From positions 248,001 through 312,000 of the forward strand of contig JAFAZH010000052.1 in assembly GCA_019239895.1 (NCBI GenBank): a stretch of 64,000 nt of DNA. The letters are read 5' to 3'. The translations under genes and the position numbers were made by a program. The notes beneath the pieces were generated by a model. That model had not been told where the DNA came from. It did not search any database and worked only from the letters and a program-made list of their open reading frames with translations. Below, in pieces: positions 54,008-59,496 of this stretch (position 1 is its first letter; each line of letters begins with the position of its first letter). Source of the stretch: Abditibacteriaceae bacterium. GTDB taxonomy: Bacteria; Armatimonadota; Abditibacteriia; Abditibacteriales; Abditibacteriaceae.

Positions 54008-54988
54008 ATGTCAAATTCACGTCGTCGTTTTATAGGACAAGTGACCGCTTTAACCGGTGGATTAATAGCAGCGCCCCTGTTAAAGCGTCAACCGGTGTGG
54101 GGCGATGCAGCCGATAACACCATCCTACCCCGGCGCGTGCTGGGGCGCACGGGGGAGAAAGTCTCGCTCATTGGCTTTGGCATGGCTCCTTTGGGCAGCG
54201 ACAACACCTCGGCGGCGGATACGGAGCGCATTGTCAACACGGCTCTTGACCTGGGTATCAATTACGTGGATGTATCGCCCGATTATGGCAATGCGGAAAG
54301 CAAGCTCAAAGGCGTGTTCAAGAACCGGCGCGACGGTATCTTTCTCGTCACCAAAGTCAATCCAAACCGCCAGGATCGTGAAGGTGTGCAGCGTCAATTG
54401 GAAGAAAGCCTCCAACGCATGGGAGTGGATCATGTGAATGCCGTGCATATCCATAACCTGGGCGACTTTGATATGGAGCGCATCTTAGGGCCAGATGGCG
54501 CCTTAGCGGGATTGAAAGAAGCCAAGCGGCGCGGCCTCACCCGCTTTATCGGCACCAGCGGTCACATGCGACCACCACGCTTTGTTAAGCTGATTCAAAC
54601 GGGTGATATTGACCTGACGATGAACGCTCTCAATTTCGCAGATCGTCACCATTACGACTTTGAAGGCATCGTCTTGCCCGTAGCCCAGGCACACGGCACA
54701 GCCAGTGTCGCCATGAAGGTCTTGGGCGGGGCCGTCAATTGGCGCTATGATGGCAAGACGCCCGGCACTCTCGTGGAGCACTACGAGCAATCGGTGAGGT
54801 ATTCCCTGGGCCTGCCCAACGTCGCCTGCGCCGTGATGGGCTTTTCCAGCGAAGACGAAGTGCGCCAGGCCGTCGCTACCGCCAAAGCTTATAAACCATT
54901 GACTCCCGAAGAGCGAACAGCCCTGTTAGCCACCGGACAACGCTTGGCCGATGCGCGGGGGCTGTATTACGGGCCAGTGGATGGTTAA
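54008..54988 (+). CDS. Tat-exported aldo/keto reductase
   Basis: The 326-residue protein begins with a twin-arginine signal (SRRRFIGQVTAL). The aldo/keto reductase barrel follows, with the tetrad Asp88, Tyr93 (DVSPDYGNAE), Lys116 (VTK) and a His in VHIHN. GTSGHM and the C-terminal NVACAVMGFSSEDEV are typical of the group. The enzyme reduces carbonyls or oxidises alcohols with NAD(P)H. A Tat signal implies a folded, cofactor-loaded export, so the oxidised substrate may be extracytoplasmic. It is divergent from the PQQ dehydrogenase, which may act on related sugars. Confidence 0.92.
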   Translation: MSNSRRRFIGQVTALTGGLIAAPLLKRQPVWGDAADNTILPRRVLGRTGEKVSLIGFGMAPLGSDNTSAADTERIVNTALDLGINYVDVSPDYGNAESKLKGVFKNRRDGIFLVTKVNPNRQDREGVQRQLEESLQRMGVDHVNAVHIHNLGDFDMERILGPDGALAGLKEAKRRGLTRFIGTSGHMRPPRFVKLIQTGDIDLTMNALNFADRHHYDFEGIVLPVAQAHGTASVAMKVLGGAVNWRYDGKTPGTLVEHYEQSVRYSLGLPNVACAVMGFSSEDEVRQAVATAKAYKPLTPEERTALLATGQRLADARGLYYGPVDG

Positions 54989-55011: not shown

Positions 55012-55818
55012 TTAGGGAGCATAGGGAGTGGGTGTGGGGGCCAGAGGTGGGTCAGGCGGATTATCACGCCCATCAAGACGCCAGAGACCGCGTTTGGTTA
55101 AGGCTTCCAGGCGCAGCCATTTGACGTGCCCGTCCGCAAACAGCGCATTAACGCCTCCCCGATGGCGGTTGGCTAATCCAGCTTTTAATAACTCATCTAC
55201 GTTTGGAATGGGGTTTTGCCCCACAGCGATGAAGTTATTGCCCATCATCGCAGCGTATGCAAACCCTGGCCCCAACTTCGGGTCTGGCCCGGTTATATTA
55301 CCTTTGCCATCTATAACTTGAATGGTGCTTTCCGGGTAGACTACCTGCGATCTGCGAACGCGGTGGGGTGGAAAAACCATCGTATTCAACATGTAACTGC
55401 CGTCATAAGTAATTTTACCCAGTGGATTATCCTCAGAAATGGGCGCCGCGTCTGAGGGTGGACAACCGGGCTGATACTCTCCATCGGGATGCGAGGGACA
55501 TTCAAAGATGTGCGAGGTTTGAGCATACGGGTAAACGCGATCCACCCACGAACAGTTCTGGTCTCCGTTGGGCAAATCACTGCTCACGATAAACCCTGCA
55601 TTATCATCGGTATACTGCCGCATCGCCAGCCCAATTTGCATCAAGTTACCCGCGCACCCTACCCGATGTCCGGCTTCGCGGACACTGGCCAGTATCGGCA
55701 AAAGCAGAGCCGCCAGTGAGACTATAAGTGTTAGAACACCCAGAATCTCAACTAGGGTGAAGCCCGCCGGTTGCCGATGCTCAGGGGCAGCATAACTCCT
55801 TGATGTGGGTGTCATCAT
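55012..55818 (-). CDS. Prepilin-like protein with H-X9-DG type tail (DUF1559-like)
   Basis: The 268-residue protein has a type IV pilin leader with the cleavage motif GFTLVEILGV and a single hydrophobic helix (about residues 19-45). A Cys-containing soluble domain follows, with RHRGGVNALFADGHVKWL near the end, the motif that names this large group in Planctomycetes and Armatimonadota. It is processed by a prepilin peptidase and exported. The role, whether pseudopilin or surface protein, is unknown. Its ATG overlaps the stop of the upstream gene (ATGA), so it is the last gene of a minus-strand set of exported proteins. Confidence 0.9.
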   Translation of the reverse strand: MMTPTSRSYAAPEHRQPAGFTLVEILGVLTLIVSLAALLLPILASVREAGHRVGCAGNLMQIGLAMRQYTDDNAGFIVSSDLPNGDQNCSWVDRVYPYAQTSHIFECPSHPDGEYQPGCPPSDAAPISEDNPLGKITYDGSYMLNTMVFPPHRVRRSQVVYPESTIQVIDGKGNITGPDPKLGPGFAYAAMMGNNFIAVGQNPIPNVDELLKAGLANRHRGGVNALFADGHVKWLRLEALTKRGLWRLDGRDNPPDPPLAPTPTPYAP

Positions 55819-56777
55819 GACTTACCCCCTGGCGGTGTGGCCGGGCCAGGCTGGGTCGTTGTTGTTTGGCGAGTGGGAAGTGGCGCGTGCAGCTTTAAGG
55901 GAAGTTCTGTGATAAGGCTGCCATTTGGCGCAAGAATGCGCAACGTCGGAATCAGGGGCGTCTTATGAGCTATCGCATAGGCCCTGGTAACTGGATCAAC
56001 GCCAAATTGCAGTGTCCACGCCTGCTGCAAAGCTTCCTTAGCTGCATTGTGGGTTTCCACTACCGGTTCAGCCAGTTCAGCCTCAACATGATGACGGATT
56101 TTCTGTTGCAGTTCCGCCGACAGCTTTGCCAGGGGCACCCCTTGCGGGTTTCGGAGTTGCTGAACATCTATCTCGTTGATAATCTCATCCGCTAATTCAT
56201 CGCTTTGCTGTCTTTGCTGAGTGAGGTAGCCGGGAGTATGTTCAGGTAAGGTAAACCAGTAGGGATCACCGATCTGTAGCATTTTCATCTGCTCCGGGTT
56301 CAGTCCACCATCCAGCAGGGTATACACCTTTTCTCCTGTCTTCATCCATTGAATGCCATACATACGACTCAGCGCACCCATCAACTGAGACAGGGGCATA
56401 GCTTTGATCCGGGCGGTGAGGCGCACACGGGTGGCCGGAGAGTTCACAGCAGTTTGGAGGGTAATACCGCTTTGCTGTTGCAGCTTAGGCAGAACCTCGC
56501 TGAGCAGAAGCCGCTTCGCCTCGAACGATACCTTCACAGCTAAGGTCGCATCCTGTTCTAAAGCGGTGGCGCTTAAAGGCTTATCCACAGGAGAATCAGC
56601 GGCCTGCTCGGAAACTCCAGGGGGTGCCGCGCCCTGTGCTGTATTGTTTGGCGGCGCTCCGCTGCCCGGTGGCTCAAGAGCCGGTTGTTGATCGGCGGCG
56701 CACCAGGCACTAAAAGCATGAGCCGTTAAGGTGCAGAGCATAACTGAACGAAGAAAGTTGGAATTCTTGAGTTTCAT
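55815..56777 (-). CDS. Exported protein with secretin-N (STN)-like domain, 320 aa
   Basis: A signal peptide is followed by a Pro/Ala/Gln-rich region to about residue 75. A domain at about residues 78-155 (VSFEAKRLLLSEVLPKLQQQ, RIKAMPLSQLMGALSRMYGI) resembles the STN domain of secretins and TonB receptors. The remainder is helical and of unknown fold, with a Thr/Pro tail. STN domains bind partner proteins in the envelope. The stop overlaps the pilin-like gene, so the two products are probably made together. Confidence 0.75.
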   Translation of the reverse strand: MKLKNSNFLRSVMLCTLTAHAFSAWCAADQQPALEPPGSGAPPNNTAQGAAPPGVSEQAADSPVDKPLSATALEQDATLAVKVSFEAKRLLLSEVLPKLQQQSGITLQTAVNSPATRVRLTARIKAMPLSQLMGALSRMYGIQWMKTGEKVYTLLDGGLNPEQMKMLQIGDPYWFTLPEHTPGYLTQQRQQSDELADEIINEIDVQQLRNPQGVPLAKLSAELQQKIRHHVEAELAEPVVETHNAAKEALQQAWTLQFGVDPVTRAYAIAHKTPLIPTLRILAPNGSLITELPLKLHAPLPTRQTTTTQPGPATPPGGKS

Positions 56778-56854
56778 GGGGCACCTAAATTATTCACAAA
56801 AGAGAAAATTAAGCTGTGGCAACGACAGAAGCAACACGATGGCAGGCCAGCCCA

Positions 56855-57667
56855 TTAACGCCTGTTAATCGAAATGTAGCGTGGTTGCCCGGCGCTGTTA
56901 CTCTGCACGGTGATCATTTGCGTGTAATGTCGTTTACCATCGCTGGCCGGGGCATCCTGTATCTTTAGCAAAGCTTCTGCCCAGGGCTTATCGGTAAACC
57001 AGAACTCTGATGCTGATGTCGGCTCCAGCATGGCCTGTAGCGCCAATGTGGTCAGATTGTGGCGAATGTTTTCTGGTAAGTCAGCAAACTTAACGTCAAT
57101 GGGAAGATTAGCCATACCCCCATTCCAGCCATGCGTTTGCTGAAAATAAGCCGCCAGTAGGGTGCTGGTCTCGGCTTGGAGTTGACGGGCTTGCGGTTCA
57201 TCCCGCACCAGATTAGGCATTGACGCATCTTCACCAGCCACTATTTTACGAGCCTGTGTCGCCTTGGATGGAATATCCGGCCTGTTCCAAAAAAGGAAAG
57301 TTTTGGTGTCATAACGTAAATGCGTCATTTTTTGTTGCTGCGCTAAATCTAAAATCAAGCCAAGTAGTCGGGGTTCTTTCACCTGGTCTGCGACAGTGCC
57401 GTCTTCCTGGGTAAAAAGAGCTACCGAGGTTTCGGGAAACGGCTTGAGCGGCCCAGTGTCGGGCACTGTTGTAACATCCGCCAAAATGTTGATGTCGGCA
57501 TTGCGGCCTAACTCGACAAGGTAATCATCCATCTGTGTGGCTTGAGGCACTGCAATCTTCTCTCTGAGTAGGTCATCAACTAAAGGCAGCGGCGCAGCCA
57601 TAATGAGTTGCAGTGGCAGCAGGAGAAGAACAGTACTAACGGCAAGTGTATTCGTGAAGAACTTCAT
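56855..57667 (-). CDS. Exported protein with secretin-N (STN)-like domain, 270 aa
   Basis: A signal peptide (LLLLPLQLIMAAP) precedes DYLVELGRNADINILADV and RLLGLILDLAQQQKMTHLRY followed by FLFWNRPD. This again looks like an STN-type beta-alpha unit. The C-terminal part ends in strands (MITVQSNSAGQPRYISI). It is a likely distant paralogue of the downstream gene in layout. GGAG precedes ATG 57667. Two such proteins next to a prepilin-like gene suggest an envelope assembly, but no secretin is encoded here. Confidence 0.72.
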   Translation of the reverse strand: MKFFTNTLAVSTVLLLLPLQLIMAAPLPLVDDLLREKIAVPQATQMDDYLVELGRNADINILADVTTVPDTGPLKPFPETSVALFTQEDGTVADQVKEPRLLGLILDLAQQQKMTHLRYDTKTFLFWNRPDIPSKATQARKIVAGEDASMPNLVRDEPQARQLQAETSTLLAAYFQQTHGWNGGMANLPIDVKFADLPENIRHNLTTLALQAMLEPTSASEFWFTDKPWAEALLKIQDAPASDGKRHYTQMITVQSNSAGQPRYISINRR

Positions 57668-57796
57668 TCTTTAACTCCAATCGTCAATTAAGGCTACAGC
57701 TATAATGGCAAGTCAAGCGTCCCTAATTAGCCGGAGACGCTTGACCCATTCTTTTTGACCCGACATCTGTTGGTGACTATGAGATTTTCAGAGTGC

Positions 57797-58471
57797 TTAA
57801 AAAGATAAATAATTAGCTTGCACGTTGGCTTGAGATGTAGTGGCAGATGCGGAGTCACCCAGAGCGTTAGCGTACGCCGTGGCGTGGGTGCTGGCAGCAA
57901 CGTACACACTAACCGTCATAGTACTGCCAGCCGGAGAAACTGAAACAGTTCCGGTATTACTGCCAGTAACAGCGGCGCTGGATGGATACTTGGTGCCGTT
58001 GACAACTGTATCAGATAAATCTTTGACGAAGAAATCGTGGGCGGCCACTACGACATGGCATTGTAAATCCACATTGGCGCTCGAGGTATTGCTGTTACTG
58101 GATATTGTTCCAGAGAGAGCATCCACGGAGTAGTTGGCGTAGGCATTAATTGCTGTGGGAAAGTCAAAAACCCCGGTAGCCTGCCAGGACCAACTTCTAA
58201 AGGACGGATTGGCTGAGGTACTGTCTCCCTGATTGTCATGCTTGCTTCCATCATTATCAGATGCGGTTATGGAAGAAATGGGGGCAGTGTAGTGATTGGG
58301 GAAAGCGGCTCCGCTGTCAGTTGGGTTTGTCCAGTAGGCGTTAGCCGTCTTGCATCCTACCACGCAGCAAATAGAACATACTATTAGCTGTGAAACCTTT
58401 GCATAATTCTCCTTTTGACTTCTAATCGGGTTATATGGCTTGGTGTCGGGTCTGCTGTGATTATAACCCAT
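57797..58471 (-). CDS. Exported Ser/Thr/Ala-rich protein of unknown function
   Basis: I do not recognise a family. The body is Ser, Thr, Ala and Asn rich (SSNSNTSSANVDLQ), as in secreted or surface proteins. A hydrophobic signal-like stretch, LIVCSICCVVGCKTANA, lies about 30 residues after the first ATG. The start is doubtful. A TATAAT at 58460-58465 overlaps the first ATG. AAAAGGAGA (58408-58416) leads to ATG 58404 in another frame, which stops after six codons; one extra A at 58398-58400 would join it to this frame. A start-proximal frameshift is therefore possible. It heads the exported-protein set. Confidence 0.65.
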   Translation of the reverse strand: MGYNHSRPDTKPYNPIRSQKENYAKVSQLIVCSICCVVGCKTANAYWTNPTDSGAAFPNHYTAPISSITASDNDGSKHDNQGDSTSANPSFRSWSWQATGVFDFPTAINAYANYSVDALSGTISSNSNTSSANVDLQCHVVVAAHDFFVKDLSDTVVNGTKYPSSAAVTGSNTGTVSVSPAGSTMTVSVYVAASTHATAYANALGDSASATTSQANVQANYLSF

Positions 58472-59040: not shown

Positions 59041-59496
59041 ATGGCTTTAACTTTTTCGCGTCAGCGTTTTCGCTATCTTCCCGCACTGCTCTTGGCGTTC
59101 TTTGCAGGTTTAGTCACTCACTGTTACGCACGGCATCTGCCCCATTGGGTCGCGCAATATGTACCCGATACTCTCTGGGCGCTCTGGGTCTATCTGGCGC
59201 TGGTCTTTATCGCTTCCCGGTTGGTCACTTGGCAGGCGTTATGCTATGCCCTCGCCTTTTCCTATTGCATGGAAGTGACTCAGCTTTATCATACCGCCTG
59301 GATTGATAGCGTGCGCGCTACAACCATCGGCGCTCTCATTTTAGGTTCTACTTTTCAATGGGGTGACTTACTCTGTTATACTGTCGGCATCCTCAGCGGC
59401 GCGTTGATTGATGTTTCACTTCAACAGCCACAACTTGAAACCGCGTCAATACAATGGGACAACTTTGAATCCACTGAGCCTAATGCAATGGTTTGA
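59041..59496 (+). CDS. DUF2809 family membrane protein
   Basis: The 151-residue protein has four or five hydrophobic helices and the DUF2809 pattern: a basic N-terminus with FRYLPALLL, VPDTLWALWVYLAL, the YCMEVTQLYH helix with a conserved Glu, and FQWGDLLCYTVGI. The function is unknown. The gene overlaps the next, kinase-like gene by 14 bases, implying co-translation and possibly joint action. Confidence 0.85.
   Translation: MALTFSRQRFRYLPALLLAFFAGLVTHCYARHLPHWVAQYVPDTLWALWVYLALVFIASRLVTWQALCYALAFSYCMEVTQLYHTAWIDSVRATTIGALILGSTFQWGDLLCYTVGILSGALIDVSLQQPQLETASIQWDNFESTEPNAMV

Follow-up and report, generated by a model that had tools for sequence, protein, structure and literature searches.

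Results

A minus-strand set of four genes for exported proteins

The window (the whole stretch of DNA analysed, 64,000 nucleotides) carries a minus-strand set of four genes for exported proteins, and all four ORFs were found where a preliminary description of the sequence had placed them. The features of the set, in window coordinates, are as follows.

57797..58471, minus strand: gene 1, a Ser/Thr/Ala-rich exported protein (224 aa ORF, from the ORF list)
57715..57749, minus strand: strong stem-loop (GTCAAGCGTC...GACGCTTGAC) between genes 1 and 2, from folding of the strand
56855..57667, minus strand: gene 2, the exported N-half of a tandem-STN protein (270 aa), with an N-terminal STN-type module and a "DLP" helical tail
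55815..56777, minus strand: gene 3, the exported C-half of the tandem-STN protein (320 aa), with an STN module at about residues 76-155, then a helical region, then C-terminal strands
55012..55818, minus strand: gene 4, a prepilin (268 aa) with a GFTLVE cleavage motif, DUF1559 and H-X9-DG

Genes 3 and 4 share the bases ATGA, in agreement with the 4-base overlap described earlier. On the gene 4 side the neighbour is a convergent plus-strand aldo/keto reductase gene ending at 54988, and on the gene 1 side a divergent plus-strand DUF2809 gene starting at 59041. With plus-strand genes on either side, the four genes form an isolated unit. Promoter and terminator scans yielded no better than chance. 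In searches of Pfam and NCBIfam, genes 1 to 3 had no match above a curated cutoff, and none of the four genes matched the Secretin barrel (PF00263). No part of a type IV pilus or type II secretion operon (ATPase, platform, peptidase, secretin) was found in the set or adjoining it, as the preliminary description had also noted of the secretin, ATPase and peptidase.

Gene 4 belongs to a distinct pilin clade

The product of gene 4 matches the H-X9-DG domain at 32.8 bits (cutoff 19) and DUF1559 at 36.4 bits (cutoff 23.3), both over the curated cutoffs, so that the earlier call of a prepilin stands. Its N-terminus carries GFTLVEIL behind a 19-residue leader and conforms to the prepilin cleavage/methylation motif; matches to the N_methyl (E 0.0035) and GspG (E 0.0014) models fell below the curated cutoffs. 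The pilins compared with gene 4 included the top profile matches from 121 genomes. Four relatives, each linked to an STN gene, scored 122-151 bits against it, and every other pilin compared scored 87 bits or less. These five STN-linked pilins, from the window and the four related loci, formed one clade with 100/98 support in the pilin tree, which was rebuilt leaving out one long-branch row and two other rows. Within this subfamily the F, T, L and E of the motif are invariant, and there are extra conserved cysteines, which in gene 4 are C89, C107 and C119.

The same genome holds 56 DUF1559 matches and, outside the window, seven Secretin (PF00263) and two Peptidase_A24 matches. The lack of a secretin and a peptidase in the set therefore means little, and offers no argument for a new machine, because the genome encodes several such proteins elsewhere, and machinery elsewhere in the genome could act in trans.

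Genes 2 and 3 encode the halves of one protein

When gene 3 was searched against the genome that contains the window, a second copy turned up on contig C59, in an ORF that also contains a homologue of gene 2. The tandem-STN protein is a single polypeptide of about 560-585 aa at four other loci: C59 of the same genome, C43 of genome G001 (G001:C43), and C211 and C25 of genome G002 (G002:C211, G002:C25); in the last three the fused protein is 568-584 aa long. At a further locus, G002:C31, the halves are split as in the window (263 + 300 aa). Thus, homologues of gene 2 form the N-terminal half of the fused proteins (L025, which is the C59 locus, L026, L027 and L029) and also occur separately at L028:177-968, and homologues of gene 3 make up the other, C-terminal half and also occur at L028:986-1888, L028 being the G002:C31 locus. 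Because relatives encode both parts fused, gene 2 represents the N-half and gene 3 the C-half of a single protein. The preliminary description had seen here two different STN-like proteins; the STN likeness was borne out by profile comparisons, more weakly for gene 2 than for gene 3, but the two are not different families. In the window and at G002:C31, each half has its own hydrophobic, signal-peptide-like N-terminal leader, and the halves are therefore probably exported separately at these two loci. A tree of the six tandem-STN proteins left their branching unresolved.

The order of the STN and pilin genes is conserved within one family

A tandem-STN gene followed directly by a prepilin gene on the same strand was found at five loci in three genomes: the window, G001:C43, G002:C211, G002:C25 and G002:C31. 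At one extreme the two genes overlap by 4 bases, and at the other they are 54 bp apart. At C59, the sixth tandem-STN locus, the pilin belongs to a different subfamily and is located upstream. The neighbours at this locus (L025:3207-17001, G000:C59) comprise a GxGYxYP putative glycoside hydrolase, a DUF6785/DUF6784 membrane protein and the pilin of the other subfamily. A scan of named genomes recovered one locus only, SDZD01000061.1, with gene coordinates identical to those of G002:C31.

Across 291 genomes of the phylum, a profile of the C-module family picked up STN-like domains in 92; most of the ORFs concerned are 550-800 codons long, and a genome often has several of them. Neighbourhoods elsewhere in the phylum were scored in regions of about 3-14 kb, and in these no pilin adjoined any of 47 STN-family genes (43 loci); the nearest pilins lay 1.3 and 2.6 kb away. 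Since none of the 47 adjoins a pilin, the STN-pilin pair is a trait of the window's family, as represented by three genomes, and not of the phylum. The preliminary description had suggested an undescribed surface structure of the phylum, to be checked by conservation of gene order. The order from tandem-STN gene to pilin is indeed conserved at the five loci, a counterpart of gene 1 precedes the pair once clearly and once marginally, and profile tests bear out the assignment to STN, but the phylum-wide scope did not hold. Elsewhere, pairs of neighbouring STN-family genes that point the same way occur at L128:5492-9964, L149:3860-8174 and L151:2766-7149, which suggests local duplication of an unnamed exported family.

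Gene 1 and the stem-loop that follows it

The mature part of gene 1, which begins at about residue 46 after ...TANA, consists of 28% Ser+Thr, in keeping with the Ser/Thr-rich exported protein described earlier. A clear counterpart lies upstream of the STN gene at G001:C43 (L027:9649-10248; local z 6.4, a score reached by none of 2000 shuffles); it is likewise a small exported Ser/Thr-rich protein, and this locus also carries the pilin nearest to gene 4 in the tree. A marginal counterpart lies upstream of the STN gene at G002:C25 (L029:10292-10984; global comparison, 15 of 2000 shuffles). None was found at G002:C211 or at C59, where the window's own genome has its other tandem-STN gene; at G002:C31 the upstream region is cut by the contig end. 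In the segment 58398-58471, the start of the gene 1 ORF (58471) has no clear Shine-Dalgarno site, and a well-spaced AAGGAG/ATG at 58404 on the minus strand is shifted by one base from the reading frame of the ORF and of the signal peptide after it. This out-of-frame start may reflect a one-base assembly indel or a real frameshift.

When the 141-nt stretch around the stem-loop between genes 1 and 2 was folded whole, its z was only -1.5. A strong hairpin occupies the equivalent position at L029:10240-10300, between the marginal gene 1 counterpart and the tandem-STN gene (z -2.4). The stem-loops at both loci lack a clear T run, so a role as terminator or processing site is only a guess; the two might give gene 1 a differing level of expression.

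Relationship of the modules to STN domains

STN domains are docking domains whose usual place is in secretins, the outer-membrane channels of secretion systems. No window protein reaches the Pfam cutoff of the curated STN model. Below threshold, the C-module family matched FecR_C in three of six members (best E 0.0015) and STN, in the same place, in two of six; gene 3 itself scored 14.4 bits against FecR_C (cutoff 24.4). Real secretins were among the hits of the C-module profile. The link to secretin N0 domains was provided by one such intermediate, a PilQ-like secretin at L147:5580-7334 that is encoded in a PilM-N-O-P-Q-like cluster and matches Pfam Secretin at E 9.4e-39 and STN at E 1.5e-5. 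The C-module family profile matches the STN/N0 region of this secretin at E 9.5e-11, and the relationship of the gene 3 C-module to STN/N0 domains is supported by this comparison of sequences. Predicted secondary structure for residues 81-155 of gene 3 (beta-alpha-beta-beta-alpha-beta-beta) would be compatible with an STN fold. For gene 2, which has no Pfam match, an hhalign comparison of the N-module with a phylum STN profile of 54 sequences gave a probability of 86.6% and P 4.5e-6, against P 0.029 or higher for 150 column-permuted controls; the STN identity of this module is the weaker of the two.

AlphaFold2 models of the STN halves, built from two-sequence alignments, had mean pLDDT values of 44.1 and 37.1 and were too poor to be taken as evidence. 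With the gene 3 model, Foldseek returned no match in the PDB at E <= 0.001; VIA-align, in the rows shown, gave generic alpha/beta matches with no secretin among them. An hmmsearch of PDB sequences with the C-module profile gave nothing convincing.

Related domains were also seen in other settings. Stand-alone STN/GspD-N0 genes with a Gly/Tyr/Ser-rich tail sit just before the secretin gene at L147:4800-5537 and L145:6146-6913, both in PilM-N-O-P-Q-like clusters, and represent another N0 domain detached from its secretin. In two genomes of another family, a long STN-family protein lies beside an ECF sigma factor gene (L143:3580-6818, L152:4650-7825); the zf-HC2 domain at the N-terminus of the L143 protein makes it an STN analogue of FecR-type regulation.

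Discussion

The reading that we prefer, while holding it at somewhat less than even confidence, is that the set is a small accessory operon serving a type IV filament machine, either a pilus or a type II secretion-like system, that is encoded elsewhere in the genome. Gene 4 would be a dedicated DUF1559/H-X9-DG minor (pseudo)pilin that one of the genome's A24 peptidases cuts before it joins the filament. Genes 2 and 3 would each supply half of a periplasmic tandem-STN protein, free of any secretin barrel, and gene 1 an exported Ser/Thr-rich cargo or surface subunit. Secretin N0 domains are docking sites, and for this reason a docking role is proposed for genes 2 and 3: their N0-type modules may serve as an adaptor through which the gene 4 pilin, or a protein carried by it, docks at the periplasmic mouth of a secretin. 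We infer co-transcription of the genes, physical interaction of their products, the docking role and the place of gene 1 as cargo. The five-locus order with its dedicated pilin clade, the kinship with the N0 domain of the L147 PilQ-like secretin and the secretins and A24 peptidases encoded elsewhere in the genome probably favour such an accessory unit, as read from sequence in three genomes of the family. The dozens of DUF1559 pilins beside few machines in the genome also suit cargo-specific pilins. Counting against it, the gene 1 counterpart was not found at G002:C211 or C59, and C59 has its pilin upstream and from a different subfamily.

The main rival is that genes 2 and 3 belong to a FecR/FecA-like signalling system in which the STN modules relay an envelope signal, from the pilin or from gene 1, to a sigma factor. 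Below threshold, the C-module matches FecR_C better than any other Pfam model, and in the other family the L143 STN-family protein with its zf-HC2 anti-sigma zinc finger adjoins an ECF sigma gene, as does the similar L152 protein, which has no zinc-finger match. No sigma or anti-sigma gene was recognised in or beside the window set, however, nor beside the linked loci that were read, save one zf-HC2 protein 5 kb from the L028 pilin, and genes 2 and 3 have an N-terminal leader only and no cytoplasmic domain. We therefore regard signalling as improbable. It is unlikely, too, that the set builds an independent surface filament of its own, with gene 4 as the major pilin and genes 1 to 3 as accessory surface subunits. 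A dedicated pilin clade with an exported Ser/Thr-rich partner would fit this arrangement, and the stem-loop between genes 1 and 2 could set differing expression levels, but dozens of the genome's paralogues also have the DUF1559/H-X9-DG domain, which is not typical of a major pilin, and nearby assembly genes are absent.

The pairing may also have arisen by chance in one ancestor and been kept by descent, genes 2 and 3 being general periplasmic tandem-STN proteins that are functionally unconnected to the pilin. STN-family proteins are found widely in the phylum with no pilin beside them, and the pilin beside the C59 copy comes from another subfamily, as this would allow. The pair has nevertheless been kept in all three genomes, one of which has it at three loci, at a low protein identity of about 30-40%, and its genes overlap or nearly touch; we consider this origin just as unlikely as an independent filament. 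A mere chance run of unrelated exported genes is very improbable indeed. The genome has many exported proteins and DUF1559 pilins, but five loci share the gene order and the pilin clade. This conserved order refutes a chance run for genes 2 to 4, and for gene 1 chance placement is partly possible.

A more speculative extension of the accessory operon, which we put forward as doubtful, is that the stand-alone tandem-STN protein is a detachable secretin N0 adaptor through which one shared machine serves many specific pilins or cargos. If true, this would explain how dozens of DUF1559 pilins are run on few machines. In their phyla, few unexplained protein families are larger than the DUF1559/H-X9-DG pilins, and a conserved partner with secretin-type modules is a testable hint as to how at least one DUF1559 subfamily connects to envelope machinery. 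The occurrence of fused and split versions of the tandem-STN protein further predicts interacting proteins.

Large families of DUF1559 pilins or pseudopilins are documented in Planctomycetes and Armatimonadetes (PMC10632474, PMC2754498, PMC4072686), with 68 DUF1559 pilins in Planctopirus limnophila (PMC10632474) and 79 PulG-type pseudopilins in Fimbriimonas (PMC4072686). Our literature search returned these expansions and no account of an STN-pilin pair.

Gene 4 resembles the DUF1559 (PF07596)/H-X9-DG (TIGR04294) prepilins of these phyla in its prepilin N-terminus, in both domains and in belonging to a large paralogous family, but is set apart by its separate clade, its extra conserved cysteines and its tie to a tandem-STN gene. 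With the N0/STN domains of secretins such as PilQ and GspD, genes 2 and 3 share profile matches, that of the C-module to a PilQ-like STN and a weaker one of the N-module to the phylum STN profile; they differ in lacking the secretin barrel and in being exported proteins of two modules that are sometimes encoded by two genes. The sub-threshold FecR_C match across the STN module recalls the FecR C-terminal and FecA signalling domains, whereas the membrane anchor and cytoplasmic anti-sigma part are missing from genes 2 and 3 and a sigma gene is absent nearby. The set is also like the minor-pilin operons of type IV pilus and type II secretion systems, in that several exported proteins are encoded together with a pilin; in contrast to these operons, it carries no assembly genes, and its STN modules are detached from the secretin.
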